DNA of 64,000 bases from Ianthella basta (lineage: Eukaryota; Porifera; Demospongiae; Verongiida; Ianthellidae), in NCBI GenBank assembly GCA_964019415.1, contig OZ025871.1, positions 3,700,129-3,764,128 of the forward strand. The letters run 5' to 3'. A program made the translations under genes and the position numbers. Positions within the stretch are counted from its first letter, which is position 1; each line of letters begins with the position of its first letter. The notes beneath the pieces are model-generated. The model worked only from the letters and a program-made list of their open reading frames with translations. It searched no databases and had not been told where the DNA came from. Of the stretch, positions 16,886 through 58,721 are shown one piece after another.

Positions 16886-17276
16886 GTACCACGGCTGTTT
16901 CGCAGTGGCAATTTAGTTTGTAGCCGCAAATTGGGAATTGGAACCAGGATCTACCCTCCTTCGAAGGAGGCCAGATTTCATCTGCTTTTTCTCCGCGAAT
17001 ACTGAATCAATGCAGATTTAACGCCTTAGTGCAACAGAAATGACAGTTGGCAAGTGAGTTTTAGCCTTTAAAGCGTGTGATATACTGTTGCCATTTCGAA
17101 ATTATAGTCGAGGCTTGCGTATATTAATCTTCTCTTAGCGTCCTTCTGCCAGTTTTCACGCTATCGTGCTATACCTTGACTGAAAGCCCAATGTGTCTAT
17201 AACATGGCAATGAAGGGCTTGTTCTACGGCGCATCGCGGATTTTGCATTATGAGCGCTAGTAACATGGTACATCCT
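16886..17276 (+). repeat. Left arm of inverted duplication, contains putative STK31-like exon 1
   Basis: 391 bp that recur in reverse complement at 18630-19021, roughly 85-90 percent alike by eye. The arm holds a CpG-rich, ATGGCGGC-containing stretch upstream of the candidate start codon at 17040 and the GTGAGT donor at 17054, so it looks like the promoter and first exon of the large gene. Confidence 0.8.
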
Positions 17277-20200
17277 ACTCACATACAGCTAAATGTAGAG
17301 CTGCGCAGTCACCGAGTCAGAGTGGATAGTGTTATGTTAGCCAACCAATCTCTGCATGATAGAAATGTTCTTGGTGCATGGCAGAATGCCTATGTGTGTG
17401 TACTGTACCTTATTTATAAGTATGCATTCGGATTACATACTCATCCAACCTGCACTTGGTTTTGATTTGCAGGGTCATTCCCCTTGTCACAGCTAGTTAT
17501 AGCAGTAGTACGTAGCTAGCTGTGATGTTTTTGTACATGAGTGTGCATAGTTGTATGCTGTTTTCCTTTCTCCAATGTTCTCCTTAGAGTATAGTTTACA
17601 AAGAATGCACTGATCATTAGTCTTGGAGCAGCTATGGTGGATGGTTAGATGCTGCATGTGTGAGAGGATGTTATCTTCCTTTGTAAAGCACAATGGGTAA
17701 TGCATACAAACACTAATACCTTGTGTAACCAGTCTACAAATAGCAGTCTGGCTATGTGAGAATAATGGCACTCGCTACACGACTGGTAGTCCTTTCATGT
17801 GGAGCAAAAGAGTATTTCTAGCTTACTATTACCACCTCCTTAGTTCTCTCCATTTGCCTAAAGTAAATGTTCTCTGTTGGATTCCAAGATCAAACGCACA
17901 ATGCAGTGTGTACAGCCCATAAATCTTATTGTTTTGGATTTATACACATTCAATTGCTTGTGTGGGAGTACTGATCACTAATTACTTTAACTCCTGTATA
18001 ATAGCTGTCACACTCAATGTTCATGCACACAGCACTTGTGGTTTCTGTTCTATTTTACAGGTACACCTGCCCCCTTTTGACTGCTAGTCTTACCATGCAC
18101 ATGTACAGCTCAGCTAAAGCCAACTGTAGTCAACAGAAAGAAAATGTAAGAGAACGCAGAGAACGTAATGTCATAGAACATAATTAATGTCATTTACACT
18201 TGATCAGCTGCATGCGTCATGCAGGAGCTGGACTATCAATTTCTTACCTATTTTTACAGCTTATTGTACCAAGCCAATTTCTAGTAATTATTTATTTTTA
18301 TGTAAGATGGCAAAGTCTTTAATTAGCATGTTCTGTTTTGTTATCTTATGGCTAAATGGTGGCTACCAAAAGTATAAACTATAAAACTGAGCTTAACATG
18401 CACTTACTAGTTTAATCCAGTGGCAAAATATAATAGCACCAAATTAAGGCATGTGCACATAGCTATGCATTCTAGCTCTACGTAGTGCATAAAGTAATAG
18501 ATAGATTTCGCTGAACAGCATATATTCACAGTTAAGTCAGTGTGCCTAATAGTCACACTGTAGTGACACTTTGAGAGTCATGAACGGATGGTATATCATG
18601 TAGTGACCGCGGTGCCCGCACTGCATATCAGGATGTACCATGTTACTAGCGCTCATAGTGCAAAATCCGCGGTGCGCCGTAAAACAAGCCCTTCATTGCC
18701 ATGTTATAGACACATTGGGCTTTCAGCCAAGGTATAGCAAGATAGCGTGAAAACTGGCAGAAGAGCGCTAGGAGACGATTAATATACGCAAGTTCTGGCT
18801 GCAATTTCGCCATGGAGAAAGTATATCACACGCTTTAAAGGCCAAAAATCACTTGCCAGTTGTCATTTCTGTTGCACTACGGCGTTAATTCTGCATCGAT
18901 TCAGTATACGCGGAGAAAAAGCCTACACTTCTGCCCATATGATAAGCCTCGCTGAATGTTCCTGGTTCCCAAACCAAAACTAAGTTGCCATAATTTATGT
19001 GGTGCGAAACAGCCGTGGTACAGTTCCACCTACGATGTCTTTGTGACAAACATCCCCCTATCTGCAAAGAACGTAAAGGTATCGTTCATTAAGCATATCT
19101 TATAGTTGGTGTATTCGCCGGCCAATGTATAAGGTTTCCCAGAATACCCCATTTCATTGGCTTCGAACTGTGTGCGACAAATCGTCGTCTGCTTGCAATT
19201 TCCCACGTGAACTTAACGTACAGTAGCAGTACATGCTCTGTTACCGCCAAGGCATCGCCTACCTTTCACTCACCACGAGCACCTTGGTTGACGGAGCTTC
19301 CTTGCTGTGCAAGGCCAGTGCCATTGATTATGTAGCTAGGTAATCCCTGTGCAGTAGCTTTAGCACAATGTGCATGTATGTCTGTGTGCTTGTATATGTT
19401 ATGCAGGTGGGGCTTAATGGCCTCTTTTCCAAGTATGGGACAGTGGAACGCTTGTCCGTAAGAGAAAAAGACTTCTATCAGACTGCGTATGTTGTGGGCC
19501 TGTTACTGCTGTGGATGCATGGTACCTTGTGTGTAGTCTAGCTCTGGTGAAGAGTCTCACTGCTACTTCCATTATAACTTGTAGGGGTGCTTCTAATCTT
19601 GCCCCCTTGGAACTTCAGCAAGCCATATAGCGACATAGTATCACCCCCCCCCCCCCCCCCCCCCATTCTTGGAACCTTAGTTTTGCCTCCCTCCCCCTCC
19701 AATAATTTCTAAATACAGCACTGATGTCTTATAATTATTTGATTTGGGGAAAGTAACAATTAAACATTTAACTGCAGATCTTCATCAACTGCACTCAAAC
19801 TTCACAGTCAACTGGTGATTAACTCAGTGATTTGTGTACAGGTGAAAAAGGCCCTTGTGGTCGAAATATTTCTGAATGTGTATTGGTTGCTCCTGCTGCA
19901 TTAGTCTTTAACCCGCTGTCCTCTGTCACTGCTACCATTACTGCTTTTGAATGCTCTCTCTTCCATTCCTGAACTCTTACATTGATTCCCAAGTGACAGT
20001 GAGGTCACAGTGGTTACTAGTTATACACCCGAGTCTACTACTGTATAGTGGGAAAATTTTGCGGAAGAAAATTTTGCAATTTCACTCAAAGCCAAGCATT
20101 TCGTGGTTTTAATTTCACGATTCTCAGTATTTTTCGAGATTTACAGCATTAATTTTTGTGATTCCTAGCTGTAAATTAGCCTTATGTTATTTGGAGAGAC

Positions 20201-23200
20201 GACCAGAAGTGTTACTTTTGTAGGTACACAAGGACTGTTGCACAAAATGACACAACTTATGGATGTTCTATACATTGGCCTTCACAGTGCTTTTCACGAT
20301 TTATGGCTTGAGGTGTGGGGTTCAAGTTGCTGATGAAGCACAAGGCAAAGCCGAGTGTTTTATCACGCAACGGACCCCCACACCGAGTGCCATAAATCGT
20401 GTAAAGCACTTCTAGCCCACTTTAAATGATATAGAGTGACTTGCGCAGGTGAATGGTTGTCCTTCGGTCTTCCATTTCCTGATTGCATCATCTGCAAGCC
20501 ATATTTGGTTGATTCCATTGTGTCATCTGTAGTGTGATTGGTTGGTTCAAACTTGCCACACATTCTGGTCAGAAGGAAGGAGTGAAGCGAGTAGCTGTAG
20601 CAGCAGTGGGCGATAACACTCCTCCGCTGGCGAGAAGACTCTCAATGAGCCTTTATAGAACATTTCCGAGCTGTGCTTTGCTCTTTTTATCACAGTAGCA
20701 TTTAAGAGCATCTATTTGCTGCGTTGTTACTGTCCCTATAGCTAGCTCTAGCTAGCTAGTGTGAAGATGCCCACTCGGACTGCCAGTTCAAGAGATGCAA
20801 AGGGACTAGTGAAGCACCCTCCCTCTGTCATTAGAGCACTCATTGCGCCTTTCAGAAGCGAAGTATGGGTAGCAGGCTAGGCTTTCACTTACAGAGTGGC
20901 GAGGTCACACATGGACAGAAATGAAGACGAACTTTCGAAATTCGTGATCTAAGTAGGCCACATTGGACAGGATCCAGGGAAGTGTAAAAAGGGAGCAAGT
21001 TTGAGTGATCGCACTTCTAGCTAGCATTCTTTATGGCACACTTGCATTCTTTAACTTCCATAAAAAGCAGCCATAAAGCACACTGCAGGATTATGCAATA
21101 TAGAATAAAATCCATTTGATCTGCCCACCCAAGTCACTCTATACCACTTTATAGTACAGTGTATGTACATGTATACCTCTTGCTTACAGAAGATCAGAAA
21201 GGGGACCCCCTAGGCTCCTAGCTACCTTCAATGTTGGATAATGTTGTCCTTTCAGTAGACATGAATTTGTCAGTAGGTGAGTTGCTGTGTGCTATGTATT
21301 GGACTCTATTCATTGCATAGGTTTGTGAAGTTTGCTGATGAGGAAGCAGCAAAGAATTCTATTGTCGAAGTGAATGGGAAATACTTCCAGGGAGCCAAGC
21401 TATCTGTATGTGAGCCTGAGCCTAAACAAACTGCATACATAGCTCACTTGCCAAGGATACTTAATCTTCTTTCTTTCCTTCTTAGGTGAGCAAGGGTGCC
21501 TGCTGGGGAGGAGTATCAAGGTATGTATGATTTTAGAGTGTTGTGTGGGAGCTAGATGTCTTTAATGCATTCCGTGAGCTAACTGTTGACCATTAAATTT
21601 GTAACCTCTTCTTTGCTCCATTGCTGTGTAGCTACACCGGGAGGAAGGATTATGGTTATAAGCAGGACTATCAGAAAGAGTGAGATTCTTTTTAGTAGTG
21701 CTGAGTCATATGGTGCTTGTCACAAGTAGGTTGGTTTTCAGTGGGTCTTTTGCATACGTATACTTATGGGTAATCTGCGTTTCCAACACAACAAGGTACA
21801 GTTGATCAATAATCGTGCAAGGACACTTTATCAAGCAGGCTGCAGATCACACAGGAACCTGGCTACCTGCTTAGCCAAAGATTCTGTTCCTTACAGGGAA
21901 GAGCATTGGAATCATTACTTGCATCTTCCTATCTGCACATGTATTGTTTCTACACTAATCACTTTGCCAGAAGTTTGTACATAGTGAAAATGCCCTGAAA
22001 ATGGGCATTTTTGCTGTTTAAAGATTTATATAGAAAGAATTGAGATTATTAAGACAATGACATTTAGGTATATTAGAACGAGAGCACTAAAATGCAGAAC
22101 CCTCGGCGCTGTGTCACACTAAAACCACGTGGAATCTTGCTGACTTCGCTTTTTTTGCCCACCACGTGGACTGTAGCTGACCTCACACTTTGTGCGCACC
22201 TTCCTCACTGCTTAACTCTCTGCTACACGCTGTCCCAGTCCCAGTTACACTTCACAGTGCTGATGATTATGCAGCCCCTGATGCAGCCCTTTGGGCGTTG
22301 CCCAGCCATTTTCTATTGCATAATTTTGGGCCGTACAGCTGTTGCCCTGTGCATCTACTACTACTCACACAGGTTCATTGCACAGTATAGTTCTCCATTT
22401 GGCCCTGTTGACTGGCGGTTGAACACAGTTACTAGCTCTTGAACACAGCCATTTTAGCGCAATCACCTAGATAGTTTAGGAATGAGTGTTGCACTGTAGT
22501 TGTTACTGTCACTCTGAAGCCGCCTCGTAGGCTGTAGAGCGAGAATAAAGTGAGACAGACAAACTCAGATGACTACCGTAACCCTGTGGCGCATGCATGC
22601 CGAGGGTTAAATATGGCAGTTAGCTGTGTATGATTTGGTCAGTTGATACTGCACTTTTGTATTCTGCTGAGTGATTTCAAGATCACCTAACCCATAGCGT
22701 TTAAAGGTGCGCAGTCATGCATGCCATAGACAATGAATCGTAAAATCCGTTAGACCCGAATGATGTATGTATCACAGTATGCAAACGTAGATTAGAGTGT
22801 GGATAAACCCAAATGACTCACGTATGCACCATTGAGAAGAAGCACTTCACTGTGCTAGTTCTGCACACTTGCCTCTTTACAGGACATTTGTTGCAGCAGT
22901 GGCAGAGCTTGTCCCTACTTCTTTGGTTGGCCTTGCATCGCACCCACAACACGCAGTAAAGTATCGTAGTTTGTTGTGGGCATTCACTGTTTTGCCATAG
23001 CCATCAAGCCTGCCCACGCAGAGTCTCGAAATGGCACTTAAATCTTTATGGGTGACAGTGCATGCAGGGTCATCTTCATCTTCACCGTCTCTCTCAGAGA
23101 AAATTGCCAATGTGCTGGACCAATTCTTCATGTGTGCCGCCATTTTTATTTTGGAACTGGCAGTATGGTTAAAATTTTGGGTGTAGTGGTTAATATGACT

Positions 23201-26200
23201 TATTGTACTATCAAATATTGTGACTTGCTCAGCAACTATTGTAATGGTGAAAAAGAGGCTATTGCTTAGCACTAATTCCTACCCCCTTTCACGTGGACAC
23301 CCTGAAAGTGGGTTGAACATGGGTTGAACCCACCTTTCACATGTGGTCTTCGAACCAGGTTCACCTGGTTTATAGACCTGAGTTCAACCCAGTTTTGAAG
23401 GTGGGTTCAACCTGCTTCTAAATGGGTGTTGGTAAAATGGCTAATCACGAACGATTATGAATGGGCATAGAAATCACTGTTTTGCTGGAAGACTGCAGTG
23501 AGGCAAAGATCCAGAAGTGTAGGGCTGCCAATTCTAAATTTGTGTTCCACTAATGGTCCTCCCATCTAGCTACAGTGTGGTCTAGGAAAGCATGGCTCCT
23601 GTTCCTTGCCCATACTACCCTTGTCTGTTGATCACTCTGAGCTAAAGTCTCCGTGTAACCAGAGAAGTAGTCATAGTAGGTTTGTCTCCTTGATGCTGAT
23701 AGAAAAAACATCATTCCTTTCCTCCTAGCCATGAATCTCTCACTGCACTGTAGTGCTGCCAAAGTCAAATTAGCCTGAAACACACAATAACCAATGCAAT
23801 ATCCTCCACCGACACCATTTTGCTATCAACTAACACATCATTTTGCCATGGGGAAATTGCCATTAGCTCGCATGGAATTTGCTAGTGAACATTAGGGAGG
23901 TTAGACCCTGGCCGAATCTAGTTACACTAGCCCAGGTTAAGGTGTGCATGGAAAAGAAATGCTGATCTTTTACTCTGGAGTGTGTGCCAATCTTACTGTG
24001 AATTGTAGGGAAGTTACCAGAAGCCACTCCTCCTCCCTGAAACAAGGCACAGGACGACAGGCAGCCTCTGTAAGCATTGGAACAAAGAAGCAGGTTGTCG
24101 TTACTCACGTAGAGAGCTGCTGGACTTTCTGGGCACAGGTAAATAGCAAGTTCTATTCTCTATGTTTGATCAGCCCTTAGTATTGCTTGGGCATTGATTT
24201 ATGAATCTAGCCCACCTAGTCATTGAAGCAGAAATGCCAAAGAACGAAACCCATGCACAAATCCATGATCGAGTAGCAAGGTAATTTGTACTGTGACATC
24301 AGAGCTATAGAAGTATTAATACCTTATGAAAGGAAGCCTTTGTGGAAGCATGTTGAATCTTGAAATGCTCCTGCTAGGGCATTCATGACGTTTATATATT
24401 ATGTAAAGTTTCTACACATATGGTATACTACAATGTACAAACTAGGATCTAATAGCATACATAATGTAAGCAGTTGTGTATTGATCACACAGTGTCTTGA
24501 GCTGACTTGTATTTCTTATCAGACTATGGACGAGTACAATACAGAATTGGTATACAAGATCACTTCTGAAGTCAGCATGTACTGTGGAAAAAATCCCCCA
24601 GTTGTGTCAACCCCTGAATACAATGAGGTAAGTATATATAAATTGTGGCAAGTACAAGTTGGCAGGTTTCATAACGTTCTCTAGCTATTGCCATGTCATT
24701 TGGTACACTGAAGCTGCATTACTTTTAGTTCCCATGACATTAAGAGTTTAAAATATTCTACCAATTATTTCTGATGTGACCTTATTATTCAATTATAGCT
24801 GGTACATATTAAGGAAAAAGGGGAATTGGGTGCAACCTTTGTCCCGATTTTTCTCGGCTGCCCACCAATGGATTGCGACTAAACTTGCCCAGCACTGTGA
24901 CACTGTGGTGTAGGCTGCACAATATGGTTTCTGTTTTTTAATGGCCCGCGACCAAGGAAGGAGAAGTTTTTGAGAAAACCCGTCCGCCGACACTTCCCAC
25001 ATCTGGTAGTGGTTTGCTACCAAACTTTCCCAGAGGCACCAAGCTATGCCTTAGAACGTCACTGGGGGAGAGGTGTTCAGAAACGAGCTACTCTTGCAGC
25101 GAACCAAGAGGGAAATGCTTGGGTGCACTTGTGCACCAAGAACCTCCGTCGGCGGCGAGTGGATTGCTACCAGACTTTCCCAATCATCTCATCTGTTGCT
25201 GCTACGTGTCACGATCACCATCATTTTCGAAAGCAGGCCTATTCTGAGCAGCGCGACGCTGGTTATTTGCTAACCCCACACAGTGGCCATCTTTGTCAGT
25301 GGCGATTGCCATGTTGCCATAGAGAAATCGAACATAATTAGCCCCAACTTTTCTCACGCAACCTGAGAACAGATTGCTACCTAACGTTCAAAGCACTACA
25401 ACGCCGTGCTGCAGAGTGCACAGCATCTTCGGCATTCTCCAACAGCCTACAGCCAAGGAAGGAACACATACGGCGAAAGAGTTTAGGCCAAATTTCACCT
25501 GCTAACTTCCTGCACATGGGAACAATCGTCATCCAATTTTCAGAGGCCCAGGGACACTGCACTATGACATGATAGAGTGTCACAAGGAATAGGGAATGGG
25601 CGAATGGGGCCATATTTTGGGCTTGCCGAAGGCGGGGCCTTGCAGCTAGTTCAATATAAATGTGTGCAGTGACATACAACTGTAGCTTCACGTATATATA
25701 TATATATATATATATACACCGTTACCAAGGAAACCATGTTTTCTCAGGCTTATATCACCTATTTGCACATGTTTCCCTTGGTATTGGTATATATATTACA
25801 TATCTGTAAATATATCCGTAACATGAAGCCATACGACAAAATGTCAATTTGAAGACAATATAGGGGCTGCCTGCGGCAAAAATTGGACATTGAAAGATAT
25901 CTCTTCAAGAACTGCAAGACCGGCGATTTCAACCCATGGAGGACACTTCTGGAGCCCCACTTTGTAATTCCTGAGAGTTTGGTGGCGCCCTGTGCAGTAC
26001 CTTTTGCCCAAATCGTGAACAAACAAACTGAATTATATATGTAAGAGTCGCCAGTAGAAATTGAAGATTAGCGCATATCGTTATAATTCGAAAATGGCCG
26101 CCGAAAATTACAAGATTTAAGGGGCAGAAAGTGCCACTAAATGATATTTTTCGACCCATGAAGTGAATGCGCTTGGATAAGGCATGCTTTCTGCTTTATA

Positions 26201-29200: not shown

Positions 29201-31860
29201 AGTCGGTGTCTTCAGGGTCTTTAGATGGTCTTCCTGACACGAAGTGTTCTCTGCAGAGACGATGATGGTCCTTTAGCTCCCATTTAGAGCGTGAAACTGC
29301 TTTGATCCAGAGTTCTCTCCTGCGTGGTTCTTCGGGGAAGCGATAAAACTTGATGGCTGAGTCCTTGCTGAAGCGATTGGCGCAACTTACGGCACAGCAA
29401 CTGACTGGCATTGTCCTCACACCTCGAAATCCCTATCTTTTACAATGGGCGTGTGGTTTCTTTTGCCAACCGTAAAAAAGTGCGCGAAATCATGACGTCA
29501 TTATGAAAAGGGTCTATTTACAGCAATGTTTTGTCACTTATTATGTTGCACAGTTATAGCAAAAGTGAAATGGCCACCATTGAACCTGTTAGCTGGAAGG
29601 AAGTATTAATTGAACAGGTCATTTCTGGGATCTGAAGCCATTCAAACTTGTGTACTGAGCTTTGTAGTGAAAGCAATCAGTTTACCTTGTATATGAAGTA
29701 TATGAAATATGGTCTTTGATGTAAGTACCCCATTATAGTATACTTCTGACAAGCACATTGTGTTACAAACAGTTATTGTATCCCCCCACTTCTCAGACTC
29801 CCTTGCATGCTACTTTCATCTCTTTCATCCACACAGGTGTATGCTGCGGTTTATGATGGTGATGGGTGCTGGTACAGGTGTAAAGTACTGGACATCAGCA
29901 ATGATGAGGTAGCGTACCACTTGATTACAATGTGAATGTCACACAATCTGTAATGTTGAATGCTGCAAGTGTGTATTTTCATGCCTGTTGTAGTGCCTGA
30001 TTCGCTACATTGACTTCGGCAACAGTGCCGTAGTAGATAGATCTTCACTGCGGAAGCTTCCTGTTGATCTACAAGCACACAAGGTCACTGAGCATTTTGC
30101 TCTTGCTGGGTTGGCCAAACCCGCAGATGACGAGCAAGAAACCAAGGTGAGGCTTGTTTTGCTCTTTCTTTTGCTTCTCTATACATTTGGTGGCTTTAAC
30201 ATGGTTACATTTTTTTGGGTATATATGTGCCTGTAATGAGTTATATATTGTTATATGGTAACACACTATGTGAGACATCCACAGAACAGGGCACAAATTG
30301 ACAGGAAAGAAGAGTGTACAGAGTAACCTGTCAATGAACTCGAACGGACGCCTGTTCTTGTGTAAGAGGATTCGGCTTGAGCAATGGGGTAACTGTTTTG
30401 AAGAAAGGTTCGCTGGACATCCAATTTTACCTTTACCAGCAGATGACACAGGTGACGGGGTGTTAGCCAGCACAAATGAGGAAAACGATCTCACCCAAAC
30501 ACTCTCCCTCGCTGAGGTAGAGAAGGCCGTGTTTGCTCTGATGTCACGGTGTGCATACGGAGTTGATGACATTCCTGCAGAATTCCGCCATGCTCCACAT
30601 GCATATTAAGCCCTACATACTATCATTTGTTCAGTACGGCTCTCAGAAGATCTGCCTGATGACTGGCTTTGTGGAGAAATAATTACCATCCGGAAAGGAA
30701 AAGGCAGTAAGAATGACTGCAAATCATAATGGCCAATAACACTCCTCTGCACAACTGCCGAAGTCATGTCAGCCATCATAGCAAAGCGCCTCTCGGTGGT
30801 GGCCATGCCTATGATGTGAGACTCACAGTCAGGGTTCTGTGCAGGCCACTCCTGAGAAGATCAACAAGTATTTCTAGTTGAAAAAAACTGGTGGGGCTAC
30901 CGCCCCAACTTGAAATACTTGCTCCCTCCAGTTGCTGCTGTGTTATCAATATATAGATCCCGTTGCCATGGTAACATGCGTCTAAACAATGTTTCTAAAC
31001 GTCGTAGACACCCCGGGTGTTGTTTCACACCGTGGTCTATTTTGTCTAGCCGTGTTTTAATTCGACGCGCGGTGTTCGCGCTTATGCTCTAAATAGTGAT
31101 TTAGAGCATGGGTGTGGCACGCGCGGTGTTCGCGCTATGCTCTAAATAGCGATTTAGAGCATGGGCGTGGCATGCACGGCGTAGGCGCCTATGCTCTAAA
31201 TAGCGATTTAGAGTATGGGCGTGGCTTGGGCCCGTGGTCTATAGCAGAGAAACTGCAGCTGCGATAACAATAGTAGCTAACTCCACAACATACGATGCAC
31301 AGGTCACTCAGCTTACTTGTTTCGTCGACAAGCAGGGTAAAGCAACAATCCGGCAGTGGCCTACGAACCTGAGCCGAGAAAGGAACTGATTACGAGCTGG
31401 GAACAGGCTTAGGACACCGCTCTGGGAAACGTTGTGGCTGACGGGGCTGACAGTGAATAAATAAGCTTACATTTAGCTTACGCGCCGCATCCACTGCCAA
31501 CCTTTAGGAACGTCTGCTGCGAGATGACAAACCCAATAACCAAATGACTTTTTCTCAGCCATTGTCAGAAATTGCTAACTACTTCCGGAAGACGCGTGAT
31601 GACGCAAATACGAGTAGTTTAACTGATTCGCTGCCGCTCCTTGCCCAATCGTTGGGATTTATAACACTTAAATGCTGACCAATCGGTGTCTCTGAAGATT
31701 TAGACCACTCGGCACTCGGGCACTTCGTGCCTCATGCTCTAAATCTCAGAGACACCTCTTGGTCAGCATTTAACTATTACATAGTAGCTATTGCAACTAA
31801 TTTTGTGTCATTCATCAACACACTTGTGAACACACCGCACACACGCACGCACGCGCGCGT

Positions 31861-31902
<42 letters not shown>

Positions 31903-40900: not shown

Positions 40901-43900
40901 AGCATGATGACCATTACAGGTGCAAGCGGTGTATTTGTGCAACTTATCAGGAGACCGCCTCCATTCACAAGTTACAGAATGTTAGGATCACCATTGGTGC
41001 AAGTTAGAGGGGAATGCAGCAACAATGCACACTTTGCATAGTGGCACAACCACCTATTGTGTCGTGCATATGTGCAAGTTATCAAGACCAACATTTTGCA
41101 CCATTGCTGTTCCTGACATTTTGCTAGACTTGTGCTGGCGTTTACTGCCATCAACTGGCACATACACTCCACTTAGTTGCTACCCTCTGCAACTTGATCT
41201 GCAAGCATGATCAGGTGGTACAAGGCCTGCCTAAAGTGTCTTCAGTTTAGCTTTTTGTTATTGCTTCATGTTCTAAGCCTTTCCCTGTGCAGTATGAAAG
41301 ATTTCACAACTGAAGCCCTTATAGTGCATTTAATATCGTATACTGTACATTGCAGAGAAACGGTAGCATTATACAGGCATATACAAGTACACTTATTACA
41401 GTTGCACTTATTTTTAGGCACTGGCTGGAACATAGCATTGGAATATCCTACCTTGTAGGGACATGACAATGGCAACTTTTTCTTCCATACAGTGCAAAAG
41501 GGGCATGTAAGTAGGTTGCAGGCGTGTGAAATGATGTGTTTGCAAAGAATAGAGGGGGTTATGAAACTTGATAGGATAAGACACGAGGATATTCAGAAGT
41601 CACTGGGACAAGTTACGGTGGTAGACATGATAGAGGAAAGGCAAAATATATGAAGGAGAGCTAGAGGGATTGGATGGCGAGAGACTTGTAAAGCAGGTAT
41701 ATGAGGGTGATATTGGTGGGAGAAGACCAAGAGGACGACCAAGAAAAGATGATGTGATAATTTTTAATTAGACATGTATGGACTTTAAGGAACTATATTT
41801 CAACTATGTAGCTATTACATTTATCATGCTATTACCCTGACAGTATACCGTTACAGATCATTTGTATTTACGTGTCTACCTCCTGCATAGGAGACACAAG
41901 CCATGTTGAATAATAATAATAATAATAATTCTTACCCATATCTCTTTGCTAGATTATCAGGTAAACATCAGTAGACAAAAACACACCTCGTGTGGGCAGT
42001 TGCACACTCACCTTACTAGTATAGGTTATACAATGAGAATGAGTGTTTATCGGATATACACGCAAAGCCTGAGGCTGTGTATATTCGATGAACCTGAGTA
42101 CGAATTGTATAACCGGCTTGTACCAGAATGCAACCAATGAAATTCACTTAACCAAAATGGCGGCCGTACGAAATGGATTCGAACGCAAAGTGGCCAATCA
42201 GCGCTAATTCAGGGTCCCTAAGAGCTGCTGTCCTTCAAAACAAGTTCACTTCCTTAGTAACGGAGATGAAGAACAGAGAAAACCACAGTGGAGCTGACAG
42301 CAGCATGGACTAGCCCAAGACCGCGTACTGCGCACTTTTTCCTGTTTGGGCAGTATGGAGAAGCCCTGCAGAGCATTCTAGTGAGCTGTCACAATTTCTG
42401 AGTGAGTTGTGGTCACTGACAAGCACTTTCATTGGACTCAGTCGTCGCTACCACTGTTTTCCTCTAGCTTCATTGGTTCTGTGGTATCCTGCTTCATCTT
42501 CGCATGGTGCCGTTTCTTTAAGCGCCTTCATTTTCGTAAGTTTTTGGTTGCTCCGCTGACACTACCATCCTGTTACATGTCGTATGCAATGTCGCTGCTG
42601 GCATTTTCATCGTCGCTACCGTCTTCGCCATTGGTACTTCCCTGTCTGCTTCTTTTAACTCTCTCTCTTTCGTCACTGCTACTGTTTCTGCTTTCTTTGA
42701 ATGTTCTTTCTTACATCGCTGCCTACACATTTTGATTCTGAATAGAAATGATGACACAGGGGTCACTAGTTAGACACCTGGGGTCACTAGTTAAACACCT
42801 GCAAAGAATGAATTTGCAGCTGCATGAATACTTAATTTGGTGTCTTAGTCATATATTCACCTAACCACATCAAAGAAAACACCCACGCATTATGGTACAA
42901 GTGAAAATAATCCCTGCCATAGGTTGTTATGTACCTGTTTCATGCAGCTCAAGAACACACTGCTGAAGTTTGAAGAAGCACAACATAACATCAGAATATG
43001 TGTAGAGAAGGTAAATATCTAGTAGCAAGTAGCATTACATTGTACTGTACTGTTTGGGACAATGTCTTGGTAATCTGACCCTTAATTCTCAGGGTGAAGT
43101 TGCTCAGCTGGTTGACACACGAAATGCGGCAAGGGAGAAATTGTTGCAGACTATCGAATGCTTCACTACACAGGCTGAAGAGAAGCTTGGAGATGGGTCA
43201 CGAATGAAGTTACTGAAGGTACTTCTACTGAATTTACAATGCTTATTACTAATTAGATCCCACTAGTCCTAGACAATGCTTATTACTAATTGTTATATGA
43301 GGAAGCCATACATCAAAGCAAGCTGCAGTGGTCTAATTTCGCATAACGCCACTGTTTACGCTTTCACACCTCATAACACACTGCGTCGAGGGGGGCTCTT
43401 ATTGGTTCACCCAATCACTTTCCACCCTTAAACAAACGTTTTGTTTACTGCTTTAGCAAAATGCCTTTGATATTCATCACCTTGTGAACTTTCTCATGAA
43501 CATTGGCTCTGAAATGATGAGTGCTTGGCACTTGGAAGCATGGTCATTAACATAAATGTATGCCTAGCACACGTGTATTTTTATGGCAGTGACATGTAAT
43601 TGTGCATGTAATGTCTTTAGTGATAGAGAAACCAACATTCCCTTTTCCAAGTTCACTTTATGGATGAAATTGAAGGTAGGTCTTGCCATTCCCAAGTTCT
43701 CCAGTCGTTTAAATCCTAGTACACTCTCTAAAAAGAAAGTTCTCCCTTCATACGCTGCTTGCAGGACTTCTAATCATATGCCCTAGTGCCGACTCAAGCG
43801 GCGCCGACGTTTTATTCAGTACGAGAGGCCGCTGACAGCCTTTTTCTTGCGACGCTTCTAGCCTTTCGCCTTGTGCTTCGAGAAAATCGTGTTCTCTGGT

Positions 43901-51550: not shown

Positions 51551-51599
<49 letters not shown>

Positions 51600-51650
51600 A
51601 CGTACACACACACATGCGTACGCACAAACGCACACACAGAACACACATGT

Positions 51651-51685
<35 letters not shown>

Positions 51686-54600: not shown

Positions 54601-57600
54601 CCTGTGAATGGTTGTCTAATCCCTACTTTCTCAGTGCCTATCTCCTGGAGAGTAACCCCAAACTCTGTCCAGCTACACTCTGTGGGAGATCCAGCTGGCA
54701 ACTGCTTGGACACTGAGTTTGCAAATGTTGTTTGAATCTCCGAGTCGTGTGCAAGTAAGGCTGTGTTGATGGCTTTGTTCTTAGTCACATGCTTCCTCTG
54801 CCAGTGCCTCTTTGGTGTCATGAGGTCCATTGTTACCAGTCGATGATCACTAGGCAAAGCACACTCTGCCCATGAGTGGGTATTTTTCACAGATCGCTTG
54901 AATTGGTTGGAAATGGCAATGTAGTCGATTTGATTGTAGATAGGTATCAACTGTGTACTGTCTGAGCTGTGGTGGTATCCCTGCCATGTGGTAATGTGTC
55001 TAGAGGCGTGTTTGAAGAGGCTGTTGGCAATAATGAGGTTGGACATTCACAGAAGCTCAGGAAAGCCTTTCCATTTTCATTGCGTTTCCCTTTTGACCAA
55101 GCACCGATACAAGAGTAGGTGTCCTTATCGTGTCTCTTCCCGATCTTGGCATTCATATTCCCCATCTATAAGGTGACAGCTCTTCGAGGGATAGGTGCCA
55201 CTGTGGACTCTAGCTGTTCAAAGAAGTTCTCGCATAGTTTCGGATCGGCTGTGCACTGTGGGGTAGTGGGTCCGTAGGCAATAACGGCGCTAATGGGGAC
55301 ATCTTGCTTACCGAATCTGAAGGTGACTACTGCCACTCTGTCACTAATGGACTTAGATGATTGTGGGTACGGCTGTAGTCTGGGCCCACTACAAAAGCCA
55401 TTCCACCCCTCAGTGTGTGCAATATAGCGCCGCCTTGTGCCATCTTCGTAGGCCACGGATCTGCTTCCCTTCTGGTCTCTTGCAGTGCCAGGAAGTCCAA
55501 CTTGTAGCGCTCAAAGTCTAGGCCCAGTTGTTCCAACTTGATGTTTGACAAAAGACTTCGGCAGTTACGAGTAGCAAATCATAGGGGACAAGCACAACGA
55601 GAGAAGAGACGTTGAGTCAAAGACTTCGGGACAAAGCCCAGCCGTGTCAGGGCCGAGATCAAAATTCCCGCCATTTTTTATGCAATAGAGAAAGCTTAAA
55701 TGTAGTAAGTCGATAGCGACTTGTCTCAGAGTGCCGCCATTTTAAAATGCCCGTCGCTCGGTCTTCATGATATTTGGAACTATATCTCACAGGAGAATCT
55801 TTCAATAGGCTTCTTACTAGCATTACCATGTAAACACATACCTATGTCCTAATTTTGTTTAATCGATAGTCGGTGAAATGCGAACATAGATGATTGTGAG
55901 CCTTGTAAAGTGTAGACCTCAAACGCTGCCATCTTGAATTGCCCGAAATATACATGCACACAGACATAGTCCATTGTGATCATGAAGCCATACAAATACC
56001 TAAAAGTGCAAACAATGTAGGCGCACCTTTGGCGCACCAAAAACACACACTGTATCTACAGACACATGCAGCACGTAGGAAATTGCCAGGCAAGCATTGT
56101 TAGCTGAAGATAATAGTATAAAAATCTAACTATGCTCAATACATGTCATCCCCTGCACTGCTCAGTGTTACTTGCAAGTCTCTGCAGGATATTCTAGCAG
56201 GCAGCAGAACAGACTCATCTTTATTTACATAAAGGTACATGATTATTTTGTATGTGTGCATTTAGGGTGAGAGGTCTCATGAAGTGACACAGCTAATGGC
56301 AGTCACTGATGGACAAGTAGAGACTTGTTGTGAGGCCTTGGAGAGTCTGAGAAAGGTTTGCTGTTGTGTGACTAACATAGTGTCAGTGGTTACTATGTCA
56401 AATTGAACTTGTGCAATTTCAGTACAGAGGTAGAGATATGTGTCTAATTTACATATCCAAAGTTTTCAGCAAGCTAAACTAGCCTGCTTGAGTTTTGGAA
56501 GAAAAGAAGAAATTGAAAATTATGCAGCAAATACACAGTGCTTTGAGCTTTCCTGTTGTCTGACATGTTATTACTTAACATGTGAGACATTTGTACATGT
56601 ACAAGTACTGTCTTTACTTGCATGAGTAGCATTTTTAATTGCACAGTACTATTTTATGCTCCAGTGACATGTGTGTAGCATGGCAAGGTATCTTTAATCA
56701 CTACTGTATGTTAGTGTTTTAGGCAGAAGGTGTAAATGCCATGAACATTGTTCACATGTGTACTGTGCTAATTTAAATTGCTTTACTACTATAACGTGTG
56801 CCACATGGGTGCGGGCTAGTACGTCCACAAGTACTCGTAGGAGTACTCGATTAACGCTTAAATTGGAATACGCTGGTGTTAAACGTGTTGCCTTTGTTAC
56901 ATGATATAGGCAGCCATTTCTTGTTTAATCTTATTCAGTTGTCCAGAGCAATGCTGATCTTCCATCTATGATTGGTTCTCCATTGATTTACCCACTTTCT
57001 AACTGTGGCACGTGAGGTTCTTCATCCATCTGACTCAAACATTGCCACCATTTGCAAGTCAATACTGTAGATTGCATATCCCAAGTGTATAATATTTCAC
57101 ACGTTAGGAGCAGACAAATTTCCCTGCAACCTCCTGCTTAACTTCATTTGAGGGGATTTCCAATTGGACTATCTCATTAAGGGAAGCACTGATGAAGTAG
57201 TGAGTAACACTAAATTACGGGAACGTTTATGTCCTTTATACATTTGAGATAAATTGTATATTCCAGTAGTGTGATATCTGGGTTATCACCCAAGATTGAG
57301 GTGAAGCCGAGGTCGCGGGTGATGACTGGATATATGACAAGTAAACAGGATACAATTGGCTTATATCCTATCCAATGGACATTACTACTTAATATACACT
57401 AGATTCCTTTTATGTTACTATCAAGTAAGATATAATCATCATTATTGGTTGCATGGTTTGAGGGCTACATGGCCCAAGATGATGTTCCCTGAAGGAAAGT
57501 GTAGCCACTGCTACTCCATAATTTTGTATTGCATGTAATGTAATCACACTGTTCTTTCAGATGTTTTCCAGCCCTGCTTGTGCTGAAGGTGACATGGACA

Positions 57601-58721
57601 AGTTTCCCGATATCAACACATTGCTAGACCAGATTATGAAGGCGTGCACTGCTGAATTGCTGGTGTTGAGTGTAAGTGCAGACATCCAGTATAAGTGTAC
57701 ATCTGTAGGGGCATGTCCAATGAAAGCATGTATGTACTATTTAATTTGGCATATAATGGAGCAAACACTGGGTTGCTCTTGACTTTAATTATTACATAGG
57801 TCACAGATTTTGACCAATTTTCTCATGTTCAGCAGATGAGACACTACTGGTATAGCTCCTTTTTGCATCAAAATCAATAAAATTATTGCTGGTTGGTGGG
57901 TAGGAGTTGAATCCTGACCTCATATTGTCTTTGCTAATGAATTATTATTGCCCACTTGATAGCTCTATAATTAACTGTGCATTGTTTACCACATATATGC
58001 AAAGGCCACAACATTGGAATGACTTAATGCTACTGTTAGCTTCAGCTTATACATTATGCCCAAACTGGCATCTTAACCATCCTACACTTAATATGTAGTT
58101 TTTTTGAATAAAGTTCACAATGGCCAGAAACAAAGACTTCATAGAGCAGTTACTGACCGTCTTTTTTGATCTGGTTCTTGCTGGATGGGTAGGTGTGCTG
58201 ATGTGTTGCTATCACCTCACTTCTCAATCTGCTTTTAACCCATTAGTCCTGAATGATGCATATATGCGTCATGGCGAACTAGTCTCAGAAAATGTCGCTC
58301 TTCGCTGGCTATGAGTAGTCCACGGCAGTGTCTCTTTCACAGGGCATGCAGTAGTATCAGAGCCTCCTTTGGCATTCCTACCTCAATTCCTGGTCATGCA
58401 AGCTGCGCGAAACCAACTGCTTTAGTTTGCAAATGATATTATACAACACTTCTTGCTTGTATTTTAAGTACGCATGCGCTGGCATGAATTGGTGTTGGAA
58501 GAACTCCAAAAATTGTTAGGACAATACACACTGCATTTGCTGCAACTTTATTGTGTGATAAGTGTGTAAAGCTGTCTTGTTCTATGTCTGTATTGGAAGA
58601 TCTCTAATATGTTTCTTTTGCAGAGAGATGATAAATCATTATTACCTGAATACATATGCAAACTGCTTTCACAACTCATGGGTAGCATCCAGTTGGAAAT
58701 CAAGGAAATGCTAATGCTGAG
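17040..58721 (+). CDS. STK31/TDRD8-like protein with N-terminal RRM, 22 exons, 3-prime end outside window
   Basis: Phase-consistent exons: 17040-17053, 19024-19078, 19407-19486, 21321-21405, 21486-21520, 21632-21679, 24009-24138, 24523-24627, 29837-29908, 29994-30146, 33919-33991, 34115-34299, 34428-34460, 39359-39657, 39771-39906, 40599-40754, 42948-43010, 43093-43218, 50039-50143, 56266-56355, 57561-57671 and 58624-58721. About 750 residues are encoded here. Order: RRM (8-80), linker, Tudor domain (150-260), coiled coils (about 357-501), helical region (501-750). [26 protein letters not shown] and [11 protein letters not shown] align with STK31, as does [12 protein letters not shown] further on. 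STK31 is a germline Tudor/kinase protein linked to germ granules. The kinase domain should follow downstream; I find no kinase exon before 64000. The RRM is not in human STK31 as I remember it. Exon 1 and the end of exon 13 are the least certain calls. Confidence 0.82.
17277..18629 (+). other. Spacer of the inverted duplication (STK31-like intron 1)
   Basis: 1.35 kb of AT-rich sequence between the two arms of the inverted duplication. Short ORFs (17250-17465, 17493-17771) show no recognisable domain. Confidence 0.6.
18630..19021 (-). repeat. Right arm of inverted duplication, antisense copy of the exon-1 region
   Basis: Reverse-complement copy of 16886-17276. It contains an antisense version of the candidate first exon. 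Its outer end (CAGCCGTGGTAC, to 19021) runs into the AG acceptor used by exon 2 at 19024. Confidence 0.8.
19024..21679 (+). CDS. RRM-encoding exons of the STK31-like gene
   Basis: Exons 19024-19078, 19407-19486, 21321-21405, 21486-21520 and 21632-21679. RNP2 is VFVTNIP (residues 10-16), helix 1 is [20 protein letters not shown]1 is DFYQTAFVKF (45-54), and the fold closes with [12 protein letters not shown]. The RNP1 aromatic pair is present, so RNA binding is plausible. A basic Tyr/Lys-rich linker ([14 protein letters not shown]) follows. The alternative is that this is a separate short RRM gene, but the phase-2 junction into exon 24009 and the absence of a stop or polyadenylation signal favour one transcript. 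Confidence 0.8.
19644..19664. repeat. C homopolymer, 21 bases
   Basis: Uninterrupted run of C in the intron after exon 19407-19486. Confidence 0.95.
20041..20180 (+). mobile_element. One-ended fragment with the pogo-like terminus
   Basis: After a TA dinucleotide the sequence CTGTATAGTGGGAAAATT begins. The same terminus, also after TA, lies upstream of the transposase gene at 61162. I find no matching right end nearby, so this is a solo end or a degraded non-autonomous copy. Confidence 0.5.
20286..20410. repeat. Hairpin with 22-bp arms
   Basis: 20286-20307 and 20389-20410 are inverted copies (TTCACGATTTATGGC against GCCATAAATCGTG). A further inner match is TGTGGGG with CCCCCACA. It is probably the subterminal hairpin of a transposon in this intron. 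Confidence 0.75.
22098..22609. mobile_element. Possible 510-bp MITE with AACCCTCGGC ends
   Basis: 22098-22107 reads AACCCTCGGC and 22600-22609 is its exact inverse; a looser match continues inward. There is no transposase. An open frame at 22092-22442 has no recognisable motif. Confidence 0.4.
22877..23143 (-). CDS. Unrecognised antisense ORF of 88 codons
   Basis: Starts at an AAAATGGCGGC context (ATG at 23143) and runs to a stop at 22877. It reads [15 protein letters not shown], then an acidic GEDEDD patch and [20 protein letters not shown]. Composition looks protein-like, but I recognise no family. It lies in an intron of the STK31-like gene on the opposite strand. It may be a nested gene, a first exon, or a transposon fragment. 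Confidence 0.25.
   Translation of the reverse strand: MAAHMKNWSSTLAIFSERDGEDEDDPACTVTHKDLSAISRLCVGRLDGYGKTVNAHNKLRYFTACCGCDARPTKEVGTSSATAATNVL
23280..23425. repeat. GGTTGAACC-rich palindromic cluster
   Basis: Overlapping inverted words (GTGGGTTGAAC, GTTGAACCCAC, CAGGTTCACCTGG) fill about 145 bp, as in subterminal repeats of a DNA transposon. Borders not resolved. Confidence 0.4.
24009..34460 (+). CDS. Tudor-domain exons of the STK31-like gene
   Basis: Exons 24009-24138 and 24523-24627 encode the pre-Tudor strand [11 protein letters not shown] and a helix. Exons 29837-29908 and 29994-30146 encode the barrel with Tyr190, Trp196, Tyr197, Tyr213, Asp215, Phe216 and Asn218, the aromatic-cage type residues that read methylated arginine. 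Exons 33919-33991 and 34115-34299 give the second half of an extended Tudor/SN-like unit ([20 protein letters not shown]). Exon 34428-34460 is short; its end was chosen so that it joins the next exon in phase. The 5.2-kb intron after 24627 holds a complete DNA transposon. Confidence 0.82.
24628..26035. other. Intronic repeat-rich stretch
   Basis: Contains degenerate recurring words of the type GATTGCTACCAAACTTTCCC at about 24872, 25013, 25162 and 25373, a TA microsatellite at 25694-25715, and one copy (25790-25880) of the hairpin-ended family whose other copies lie at 26630, 44500, 48850 and 55980. An open frame at 24970-25341 overlaps the degenerate repeats and is not credible as a gene. Confidence 0.5.
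26036..26623. mobile_element. 590-bp element with about 45-bp inverted ends
   Basis: The words TCGCCAGTAGAAATTGAAGA (26048 region) and TCTTCGATTTCTACTGGCGA (26595 region) are inverted near-copies, and the match extends through GCGCATATCG/CATAATGCAT. No transposase ORF inside. Confidence 0.6.
27309..27890 (+). pseudogene. Truncated SAP-type accessory protein of the ISL2EU-like element
   Basis: From ATG 27309 it reads [20 protein letters not shown], then a SAP-like [20 protein letters not shown] segment. [21 protein letters not shown] follows in pieces, and [18 protein letters not shown] comes in another frame. This N-terminal order is what I know from the second ORF of these elements, which continues into a YqaJ-type exonuclease. 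Here in-frame TAA codons (27417, 27597) and a frameshift near 27708 break it, and the YqaJ part is absent. Confidence 0.6.
28004..29420 (-). pseudogene. THAP-DDE transposase gene of the ISL2EU-like element, broken
   Basis: Minus strand from ATG 29420. A THAP zinc finger covers the first 85 residues (Cys pair CAVSC, later CREHF, and VPTVF box). After an in-frame TGA near 29112 the same frame continues through a coiled coil ([20 protein letters not shown]) and a helix-turn-helix start ([11 protein letters not shown]). A frameshift near 28770 follows, and another TGA near 28613 sits where a Trp is expected. The remaining 202-codon frame is a DDE_4-type catalytic domain with Asp in VIIDCTEVF, Asp in VMADRDFD and Glu in IHVERAISQ. 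It is not functional as it stands. Confidence 0.8.
30300..30830 (+). mobile_element. LINE reverse transcriptase fragment, degenerate
   Basis: Reads [34 protein letters not shown] then [18 protein letters not shown] and SKNDCKS-WPITLL. This is the domain 0 to motif 2 region of a non-LTR RT, with stops. The YADD catalytic box is missing. It is truncated on both sides and followed directly by a hairpin-ended repeat. Confidence 0.7.
30952..31785 (+). mobile_element. Non-autonomous element, copy 1, nested; contains 54-bp palindromic tandem repeats
   Basis: Starts ATCCCGTTGCCATGG and ends in a hairpin built on AAATGCTGACC and GGTCAGCATTT. The copy at 60275-60965 is in reverse orientation and shares the same ends and interior (for example TCTGGGAAACG). 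The uninterrupted host sequence is preserved at 49865-49885, which fixes the borders. Imperfect 8-bp flanks (ATATATAG and TTACATAG) would fit a hAT-type duplication. Confidence 0.65.
31066..31226. repeat. Three tandem 53-54-bp units, each with a palindrome
   Basis: Units start near 31066, 31119 and 31172. Each has a GCGCGGTGTTCGCGC-like head and the palindrome TGCTCTAAATAGCGATTTAG, then GGGCGTGGC. Units 1 and 2 are almost identical; unit 3 has diverged in the head. Confidence 0.88.
31866..31945. repeat. CA microsatellite
   Basis: Mainly uninterrupted CA dinucleotides from about 31866 to 31900, then interrupted CA to about 31945. Confidence 0.95.
32601..33918. other. Intron stretch with no recognised gene
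   Basis: No conserved coding exon found before 33919. A frame at 33032-33346 lacks motifs. Confidence 0.5.
34975..35430. repeat. Dispersed repeat, copy 1
   Basis: Shares AACCAATCTTCACCGAACTT-type sequence, GGGTGACCTAA and ACTCCTTTAGACGAAATG with 45315-45660 in the same orientation over about 400 bp, with substantial divergence. Confidence 0.7.
35440..36691 (+). mobile_element. Degenerate retroelement polyprotein fragment (RT C-terminal side)
   Basis: Frame pieces read [108 protein letters not shown] and [11 protein letters not shown] know this order from RT-derived polyproteins common in cnidarian and sponge genomes. The DGK-PD...VWDATC part looks like a PD-D/E-K nuclease; here PD is PN and the Trp before Asp is TGA. 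Several frameshifts and stops make it dead. Confidence 0.65.
36700..39358. other. Long intron stretch with small repeats only
   Basis: Contains the 127-bp MITE at 37451 and CACAGACCG/CGGACCGC-rich inverted words at 38160-38350. No coding exon could be supported; an extra STK31-like exon around 39120-39210 cannot be excluded. Confidence 0.45.
37451..37577. mobile_element. 127-bp MITE-like element
   Basis: Ends are inverted (GACGTAGCAGATTAATTAAC against GTTGATTAATTTGCTACGTC, about 18 of 22 matching). The centre has two GCGTACAAA-GCTAGTTTTG type units that can pair with each other. Confidence 0.65.
39359..43218 (+). CDS. Coiled-coil exons of the STK31-like gene
   Basis: Exons 39359-39657, 39771-39906, 40599-40754, 42948-43010 and 43093-43218. 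A Ser/Thr/Pro/Gln-rich stretch leads into heptads ([40 protein letters not shown]). [20 protein letters not shown] matches the STK31 segment after its coiled coil. No stop codon occurs in the joined frame across these exons. Confidence 0.78.
40130..40240. repeat. Hairpin terminus related to the 30952/60275 element
   Basis: AATGCCGACCAGGAGGTATC pairs with CACCGATTGGTTGGCATT, with an inner pair around CGGGAT/ATCCCG. Same architecture as 31662-31775 and 60285-60395, but diverged, and the rest of the element is not seen. Confidence 0.6.
41500..41930 (+). mobile_element. LINE 3-prime remnant with AAT tail
   Basis: Reads [20 protein letters not shown] then [12 protein letters not shown] and VVDMIEERQ before stops. 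This is the same post-RT region as at 9892-10384. It ends with the same CCTCCTGCATAGGAG hairpin (about 41880) and an AAT microsatellite at 41908-41929. Confidence 0.72.
42640..42790. repeat. Dispersed repeat shared with 19905-20035
   Basis: Both stretches carry CGTCACTGCTAC/GTCACTGCTACC, TTTGAATG-TCT and a GTCACTAGTTA/GTTACTAGTTATACACC end in the same orientation. Confidence 0.5.
43238..44090. repeat. Direct repeats flanking a hairpin-bearing segment
   Basis: The 22-bp sequence at 43253-43274 (TTAGATCCCACTAGTCCTAG start) recurs exactly at 44069-44090. The left copy is itself bracketed by a tandem copy of CAATGCTTATTACTAATT (43238 and 43273). Just before the right copy is a 67-bp near-perfect palindrome at 43996-44062 (GTTATAACATGGCCGC arms). 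Confidence 0.75.
44490..44880 (-). repeat. Hairpin-ended dispersed repeat, minus orientation
   Basis: Reverse complement aligns with 55740-56040 over about 300 bp, including the terminus CATGAAGCCATA (here with one change), AATACTTAAAT and AACAATATAGGGGC with a GC-rich terminal hairpin. Other termini of the family are at 25790, 26630 and 48850. Confidence 0.7.
45060..45312 (-). repeat. Hairpin-ended repeat related to 51343
   Basis: Read in reverse it starts CCAACAAGTATTTTGAGTT with an AACTCGTGGG stem and continues into a segment that can be read [20 protein letters not shown]. The homologous segment at 51414 reads [20 protein letters not shown]. The shared reading frame suggests it once was coding. 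Confidence 0.6.
45315..45660. repeat. Dispersed repeat, copy 2
   Basis: Diverged copy of 34975-35430 in the same orientation; see that entry for shared words. Confidence 0.65.
46250..46690 (-). mobile_element. Retroelement fragment, 3-prime end of the polyprotein
   Basis: The minus strand reads [20 protein letters not shown], then directly [24 protein letters not shown]. In intact relatives I know, these two blocks are separated by a long spacer, so this copy has an internal deletion. It belongs to the same family as 35440-36691. A 28-bp tandem duplication (GTGATATCGCATAGCTCATT type) is at 46540-46595. Confidence 0.55.
47800..48510 (-). CDS. Candidate nested minus-strand gene fragment, unrecognised
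   Basis: 48510-48367 reads from [23 protein letters not shown], then [20 protein letters not shown] and KLTVFMLQ. It ends at a GTACCT donor, 48 codons, phase 0. The pattern [17 protein letters not shown] resembles a WD40 blade. A second stretch, 47944 down to about 47800, follows a CTCAG acceptor and reads [20 protein letters not shown], then [18 protein letters not shown]. The two do not join in phase directly, so a middle exon would be needed. It lies inside an intron of the STK31-like gene. Confidence 0.3.
48985..49975 (-). repeat. Hairpin/CA-repeat element, copy 2 (uninterrupted)
   Basis: Reverse complement of the element at 30869-32600, without the nested insertion. It has the AACTCGAAATACTTG hairpin end (49920-49965), the empty site at 49865-49885, a GT microsatellite at 49625-49665, and the long shared tail down to 48985. 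Confidence 0.75.
50039..58721 (+). CDS. Helical exons of the STK31-like gene before the expected kinase domain
   Basis: Exons 50039-50143, 56266-56355, 57561-57671 and 58624-58721 are multiples of three or phase-consistent and lack stops. They encode mostly alpha-helical sequence (for example [15 protein letters not shown] and [19 protein letters not shown]), as expected between the coiled coil and kinase of STK31. Sequence identity is too low to align by eye, so these exons rest on splice signals, phase and order. Confidence 0.68.
51248..51262. repeat. A homopolymer
   Basis: About 15 consecutive A, in an intron. Confidence 0.9.
51343..51770 (+). repeat. Hairpin-ended repeat with large CA microsatellite
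   Basis: ACAACAAGTATTTTGAGTT start, an ADDLK-type segment as at 45060, then imperfect CA repeats from 51548 to 51730. Open frames on both strands over the CA tract are artefacts. Confidence 0.8.
52292..52411 (+). CDS. Exon-like ORF, copy 1 ([12 protein letters not shown]...)
   Basis: ATG in an AAAATGGCG context, 40 open codons, then a GTATGC donor at 52412. It reads [20 protein letters not shown] then LNWHG. A related copy lies 47 bp downstream at 52458-52670. The family is not recognised. It could be the first exon of a gene or of a transposon gene. Confidence 0.35.
52458..52670 (+). pseudogene. Exon-like ORF, copy 2, one in-frame TGA
   Basis: Same ATGGCG start and CGGCCCGCGG word as copy 1. 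One TGA comes after eight codons, then the same frame reads [30 protein letters not shown] and continues to a TGA at 52668. Conservation with copy 1 at the protein level (SAA, LGE-HP-K, NWHG) suggests former coding function. The LINE at 52672-55590 adjoins its end. Confidence 0.4.
52672..55590 (-). mobile_element. Degenerate endonuclease-RT LINE (APE type)
   Basis: Minus strand. The endonuclease starts near 55585 ([24 protein letters not shown]) and includes [21 protein letters not shown] and PSDHRLV. The RT covers about 54245-53283: [45 protein letters not shown] and catalytic [10 protein letters not shown]-terminal domain (53225-52686) has [14 protein letters not shown] and ends [10 protein letters not shown]. 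It is broken by a frameshift near 55400 and one near 55060, a TAG at about 55166, and TGA codons at about 54270 and 53283. Apart from these the frame is well kept, so the copy is fairly young. It is inserted opposite to the host gene. Confidence 0.88.
55740..56040 (+). repeat. Hairpin-ended dispersed repeat, plus orientation
   Basis: Direct-orientation copy of the family at 44490-44880, ending ATGAAGCCATACAAATACC and AACAATGTAGGCGCACC with a GGCGC-type terminal hairpin. Confidence 0.65.
57266..57340. repeat. Hairpin around ATATC...TCACCC
   Basis: GTGATATCTGGGTTATCACC pairs with GGGTGATGACTGGATATATG, a symmetrical stem with a GAGG-rich loop. Probable transposon terminus or small foldback element. 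Confidence 0.5.

Follow-up and report, generated by a model that had tools for sequence, protein, structure and literature searches.

A putative RRM encoded upstream of the Tudor domain in a very long STK31-like gene of the sponge Ianthella basta

Exons, introns and neighbours of the gene

The window, which is the whole stretch of 64,000 nucleotides of Ianthella basta DNA that was analysed (contig OZ025871.1, positions 3,700,129 to 3,764,128), contains 18 supported exons of an STK31 (TDRD8)-like gene, all on the plus strand, as determined by splice-site reading together with domain and STK31 matches. Positions above 64000 are a straight continuation of the window coordinates into the next 120 kb of the same chromosome. 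The features of the gene model are as follows.

16875..16889, plus strand: exon 1, left piece, with the start ATGATGGCGGCGTAC (MMAAY); the flanks joined at the duplication read into the RRM in frame
16890..19017, strand not assigned: DNA transposon of 2128 bp in coding exon 1
19022..19078, plus strand: exon 1, right piece, RRM, with RNP2-like VFVTNI
19407..19486, plus strand: exon 2, RRM; weak donor
21321..21405, plus strand: exon 3, RRM, with RNP1-like QTAFVKF spanning the exon 2-3 junction; weak donor
21486..21520, plus strand: exon 4, end of the RRM, 35 nt; top-scoring acceptor of the model, strong donor
21632..21679, plus strand: exon 5, linker; phase 1 in, phase 2 out
24009..24138, plus strand: exon 6, linker and first strand of the extended Tudor; phase 1 in, phase 0 out; no internal ATG
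24523..24627, plus strand: exon 7, extended Tudor
29837..29908, plus strand: exon 8, Tudor core, CWYRCKVL
29994..30146, plus strand: exon 9, Tudor core
33919..33991, plus strand: exon 10, C-terminal half of the extended Tudor; weak donor, picked for phase
34115..34299, plus strand: exon 11, end of the extended Tudor; weak acceptor, picked for phase
39359..39657, plus strand: exon 12, linker and start of the coiled coil; one of several acceptors of the same phase
39771..39906, plus strand: exon 13, coiled coil (by eye)
42948..43010, plus strand: exon 14, helical
43093..43218, plus strand: exon 15, helical
56266..56355, plus strand: exon 16, helical
57561..57671, plus strand: exon 17, helical
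58624..58721, plus strand: exon 18, last in the window; phase 2 out, fitting the next exon at 68928
68928-69120, plus strand: exon 19, beyond the window; STK31 score reached by 1 of 300 shuffles
85499-85576, plus strand: exon 20, beyond the window; STK31 score reached by 0 of 300 shuffles
98192-98346, plus strand: exon 21 (tentative), alpha-C to hinge segment by eye; score reached by 16 of 300 shuffles
109694-109867, plus strand: exon 23, catalytic-loop exon, 46 kb beyond the window; GLHCFHKLNIVYGDLTTRSV...IIDFDLSKSL
127892-127993, plus strand: exon 24 (tentative), SRMAGDMYLFGKILLL; tblastn E value 24; score reached by 31 of 300 shuffles

The model of 23 exons (exons 1-21, 23 and 24) encodes 888 amino acids without a stop, with a single phase gap, which was padded, at the exon missing between 98346 and 109694; neither this exon nor the C-terminal end was found in the continuation. 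The splice sites were picked with phase and homology in view, so that the phase agreement is partly by construction. Splice-site strengths were scored using a generic matrix, by which the donors of exons 2 and 3 are weak, as is the acceptor of exon 11. In exons 4, 6 and 20 codon usage prefers a frame other than that of the model, and the codon-usage score is below zero for exons 4, 6, 12, 18, 20 and 24. The alignment with human STK31 suggests that further window exons may be missing at two places where the human protein is longer, one between exons 13 and 14 and the other between exons 15 and 16.

The preliminary description of this DNA joined 22 exons in the window without a phase conflict into RRM, Tudor, coiled coil and helical region. 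The order of the domains is confirmed by the profile matches and the STK31-collinear exons, and the RRM and Tudor exons do join in phase with GT/AG ends; the start exon and the count of 22, however, gave way to a different start and to the 18 exons above. The gene is very long, as the proposed span of more than 41 kb implied, but 58721 is the end of the last window exon and not of the gene. The gene is at least 93 kb long (to 109867), and 111 kb long if exon 24 is correct.

The proposal that the introns collect transposons agrees with the DDE_Tnp_4, THAP and RVT_1 matches found within them. On the minus strand, a DDE_Tnp_4 transposase frame and a THAP frame lie close together at 28007-29432, within an intron, and reverse-transcriptase-type frames were recognised by eye at 52689-55578, where 53286-54269 matches RVT_1. 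On the plus strand, a frame that stays open over 509 codons and matches the transposase family DDE_1 lies between exons 18 and 19 (61194-62723), and CA-type simple repeats at 31679-32064 and 51414-51760 give long His-Thr frames. Frames of gag-pol retroelement type (by eye) follow soon after the tentative exon 24 (L041:4761-8300 approximately); one piece of this type gave no match against Pfam. The upstream neighbour of the gene, at 15257-16705 on the plus strand, is a single open frame with a sulfotransferase domain.

The RRM, the insertion in exon 1 and the junction with the Tudor exons

Joined exons 1-4, searched against Pfam as part of a joined piece of 363 amino acids, match RRM_1 with an E value of 2e-9 and 37.6 bits, above the cut-off of 20.7. 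By eye against the RRM consensus, the RNP2 aromatic is present in VFVTNI, and one of the two RNP1 contact aromatics is present in QTAFVKF. The 35-nt exon 4 is needed because exon 5 would otherwise be out of frame after 21405.

The first coding exon is divided by the 2128-bp element. The element carries the terminal inverted repeats CACGGCTGTTTCGCA and subterminal inverted repeats at 16984-17250 and 18656-18922, and it is flanked at both ends by GTAC, the target-site duplication, whose first copy forms the last four bases of the left piece of exon 1 and whose second copy occupies 19018-19021. No transposase frame was found in the element, in which the longest open frame is 93 amino acids. All six copies fetched from elsewhere in the genome are 97.5-100% identical to it, and each has a 4-bp repeat at its ends, as read by eye; further relatives occur at many places, mostly partial or more diverged. 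In its ends and in the length of its duplication the element resembles the DNA transposons with CAC ends and 4-bp duplications (presumably Chapaev-like), although it has no transposase. The insertion in the sequenced haplotype is a recent one. No empty copy of the exon 1 site was found in the assembly.

When the flanks are joined with one GTAC, the ATG at 16875 runs in frame straight into the RRM, and this ATG is most likely the start of the gene. It lies approximately 170 bp downstream of the stop of the sulfotransferase-like frame; in-frame ATGs are also present at 16863 and 16770, with an in-frame stop at 16737. The start at 17040 given previously lies inside the young transposon, and the 14-nt exon that it would begin was rejected for the same reason, with an acceptor at 19024 that scores 0.4. 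The ATG at 18956 is likewise element sequence and was kept solely as a possible new start on the insertion allele. The element is a warning for gene prediction, because two start codons that are plausible by eye are derived from it.

On the sequenced haplotype the transposon separates the start codon from the RRM. Counted from ATG 16875, it lies between codons 5 and 6, and the original frame becomes MMAAYHGCFAVAI followed by a stop, after 13 codons, the last eight of which belong to the element. On this allele the frame ends there unless the in-frame ATG 18956 or splicing rescues it. One consequence could be that the insertion killed the allele, so that the RRM part or the entire gene is a pseudogene in the sequenced individual. 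We consider this somewhat unlikely: the stop eight codons into the element speaks for it, but the downstream exons found are all open, by which any loss would have to be very recent. In addition, the insertion is perhaps present on one chromosome copy only (heterozygous), or ATG 18956 may bypass it. A pseudogene of this kind is compatible with an RRM-Tudor protein encoded by other alleles.

Exons 6-11 (24009-34299) encode a complete extended Tudor domain, which matches the Pfam family TUDOR with an E value of 2.9e-22 and 79.4 bits (cut-off 23). The closest solved structure by sequence is that of Drosophila CG7008 (PDB 2wac; E value 7.6e-17, query residues 151-329), where the two halves of the extended Tudor are both aligned; further matches are to several structures of TDRD1 and TDRKH. 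CG7008 is Tudor-SN, which has nuclease-like repeats and is not known to have an RRM or a kinase. The residues of CWYRC and RYIDFGN presumably correspond to the aromatic cage of the methyl-arginine readers. The correct frame of exon 6 reads ...TFWAQ and ends in phase 0; its frame 0 (GSYQK...) was rejected, since exon 7 would then be read in a stop-containing frame and the Tudor homology would be lost. This rejected frame has the better codon usage and a weak zf-CCCH_4 match (E value 0.081), which was taken as chance.

Whether the RRM and Tudor exons belong to one gene was weighed at the junction of exons 5 and 6. The phase-2 end of exon 5 is exactly what exon 6 requires in the Tudor-homology frame, an agreement that has a 1-in-3 chance of arising by accident. 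The acceptor of exon 6 is usable. The only in-frame ATG before exon 6 is at 23959, with a stop upstream of it at 23938. The 17 codons from this ATG have a codon-usage score of −3.9, which is weak evidence because several accepted exons also score below zero. The sequence at 23313-23955, which in three pieces is also present on another contig (C17), is probably a repeat, and ATG 23959 lies 4 bp past it.

The same region can be read as two genes, namely a small RRM gene (exons 1-5, with a stop just past 21679) and a conventional STK31 whose start is either ATG 23959 or an unseen exon farther upstream. The frame after exon 5 reaches a stop at once, which is true for any phase-2 GTGA donor, so that the RRM exons may form a small gene of their own. 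Vertebrate STK31 is published as Tudor and kinase-like only, which is also in favour of two genes, as are ATG 23959 with its upstream stop and a single AATAAA at 22544 between the RRM and Tudor exons. However, one AATAAA/ATTAAA is not above the approximately 1.3 expected from the 184-kb average, the sequence preceding ATG 23959 is probably repeat, and the 17 codons that follow this ATG score poorly, with the reservation given above. The agreement in phase between exons 5 and 6 and the usable acceptor of an exon 6 that contains no ATG also argue against two genes, which we regard as unlikely. The single gene is favoured because of the common strand, the phase and the lack of an ATG in exon 6, and the model with RRM and Tudor in one protein is, in our judgement, the better one with reasonable confidence. 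The earlier proposal of an RRM in front of the STK31 Tudor is therefore upheld as regards an RRM_1 match above cut-off, on the same strand and in phase, whereas for a single transcript we infer the splicing of these exons into one mRNA.

The genome-wide searches covered the 209-Mb assembly of 96 contigs. In this assembly no second locus was found for the segment of RRM, linker and Tudor (36 of 36 candidates scored); the best row elsewhere has an E value of 4.3e-12 and matches the Tudor part only, and other, weaker rows correspond to the Tudor or RRM portions of different genes. No other neighbouring pair of RRM and Tudor was evident by eye among the TUDOR and RRM_1 genome matches listed. Among the matches listed in the genome-wide TUDOR, RRM_1 and Pkinase searches, which comprised the best 150 of 271 RRM_1 candidates and 127 of 2243 Pkinase candidates, none lies in the window or its continuation. 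A profile scan of raw frames (two of the three plus-strand frames, 16801-31801) gave TUDOR at 13 bits only and nothing above cut-off; such scans are near-empty because the exons are short.

Relationship to STK31 and the kinase-like exons

The human STK31 sequence used as query was an approximate one, not taken from a database record. In tblastn with this query, collinear matches on the plus strand extend from 24088 to 109867, at 24088, 29810, 29994, 34156, 43087, 68971, 85496 and 109706, and were selected from a long list that also contains chance hits. The Tudor pair has an E value of 4e-13, the catalytic-loop exon 0.010, and the other five between 1.3 and 32. A further match at 57585 (E value 42) was set aside, since it aligns exon 17 to a different region of human STK31 than in the model.

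The part after the Tudor domain scores 164 against this approximate human sequence, compared to a mean of 49.1 (SD 7.3, maximum 77) for 300 shuffles; the shuffles do not preserve heptads, so that coiled coils gain partly from composition. Without exons 23 and 24 (exons 12-21) the score is 141, and 54 for the reversed sequence. The scores of exons 12-18 and of exons 14-15 (65) were each reached by none of 300 shuffles. The resemblance to STK31 previously noted for the Tudor and post-coiled-coil segments is thus substantiated by collinear matches on one strand and a score above the shuffle maximum. Because the Tudor domain, the post-Tudor helices and the downstream kinase-like exon are collinear on one strand, the assignment of the gene as a real STK31 ortholog is well supported by these comparisons.

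A kinase domain downstream of 64000 had been named beforehand as a test, and a kinase-like exon is present at 109694-109867 on the plus strand. Its score against the approximate human STK31 was reached by none of 300 shuffles; in Pfam the exon alone matches Pkinase with an E value of 2.7e-4 and 20.9 bits, which falls short of the cut-off, 31.7. The tentative exon 21, which was chosen by eye, matched no Pfam family when searched alone, and its reversed sequence scores above the exon itself against the approximate human STK31. Joined exons 21, 23 and 24 reach 24.3 bits for Pkinase against the same cut-off of 31.7, where the matching stretch (residues 48-113) is essentially the catalytic-loop exon. 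The profile search of the joined protein, which had been suggested as a check for RRM, Tudor and kinase domains, thus placed RRM_1 and TUDOR above cut-off and Pkinase below it.

A scan for HRD/DFG motifs over 124 kb on both strands gave a single match, at 80494, which lies in a frame taken for reverse transcriptase, and missed exon 23, the motifs of which are degenerate. The catalytic loop of exon 23 reads YGD, followed by DFD, with the Asp position kept; in human STK31 the loop is HGS by the approximate sequence, and DFD is found in both. From these residues, the kinase-like part is probably a pseudokinase, like that of human STK31.

Free splice-site choice could in principle have produced the resemblances to RRM and STK31 by chance. 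In favour of this, the exons are short, none of exons 19, 21 and 23 exceeded the cut-off when tested singly in Pfam, and the raw-frame scan gave no match above cut-off. Chance is nevertheless highly improbable, since the E values of 2e-9 and 2.9e-22 allow amply for the splice choices made, the shuffled and reversed controls are far lower for the entire post-Tudor part, and exon order and strand are kept across 93 kb.

Proposed role and comparison with known systems

A germline role of the protein is suggested by its family. By the same analogy, the Tudor domain would bind Piwi-type proteins at their methylated arginines, the RRM would contact RNA that is bound or nearby, the coiled coil would multimerise, and the pseudokinase would serve as a scaffold, so that a protein of RRM, Tudor and pseudokinase could act in germ granules as an adaptor that contacts RNA. 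Little is understood about STK31, a Tudor protein of the germline. If an RNA-binding domain was once part of STK31, the original role of the protein could be read as linking methylated Piwi-type proteins to RNA.

We also considered, as a speculation with a low probability of being correct, that RRM, Tudor, coiled coil and pseudokinase together represent the ancestral animal form. In this view the RRM was lost in vertebrate STK31, and the kinase part in TDRD10, a shortened relative. If this were true, STK31 and TDRD10, which are named separately, would both be what is left of a single adaptor that contacted RNA. An RRM-bearing STK31 would also give TDRD10 an origin that can be tested. The combination of RRM, Tudor and pseudokinase in one protein would be new; the separate parts are known from STK31 and TDRD10. 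No report of an RRM in STK31 was found in the literature covered, which lay mostly outside subscription journals, and this speaks weakly for its absence; among the invertebrate papers listed there, none mentions STK31, which is also absent from the accessible part of an annelid paper.

The gene shares with vertebrate STK31/TDRD8 a single extended Tudor domain, a helical middle, a very long gene and probably a degenerate kinase-like C-terminus. For mouse Stk31, PMC3929691 gives 24 exons that span 74 kb, and great gene length is therefore not unusual in this family; the same source states that mice with the Tudor or kinase part of Stk31 deleted stay fertile. The difference lies at the N-terminus. 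The published architecture of vertebrate STK31 is without an RRM, whereas RRM_1 is encoded here in exons 1-4, if these are spliced to the Tudor exons. The domain tables of PMC2754085, as far as accessible, give human STK31 as TUDOR and kinase-like, with no RRM reported, and list it as a non-enzymatic kinase homologue, in agreement with the preliminary description, in which the human protein lacks an N-terminal RRM. Zebrafish STK31 is given as one Tudor and one PKc-like domain, again with no RRM reported in the available text (PMC5485951). A survey of Tudor genes across animals, published in 2025, lists STK31 with a single T3 (extended-type) Tudor and PK, and TDRD10 with a single T3 Tudor and RRM (PMC12147562). 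The present gene shares with TDRD10 an RRM followed by a single T3 Tudor, conditional on one transcript; no kinase part is listed for TDRD10, whereas here further exons follow the Tudor domain in phase and lead toward the kinase-like exon. Amphioxus Tdrd7, a germ-cell Tudor protein with an RRM near its N-terminus (PMC3735472), likewise combines an N-terminal RRM with Tudor, but it adds LOTUS and two Tudor domains, with no kinase mentioned in the part of that source available.
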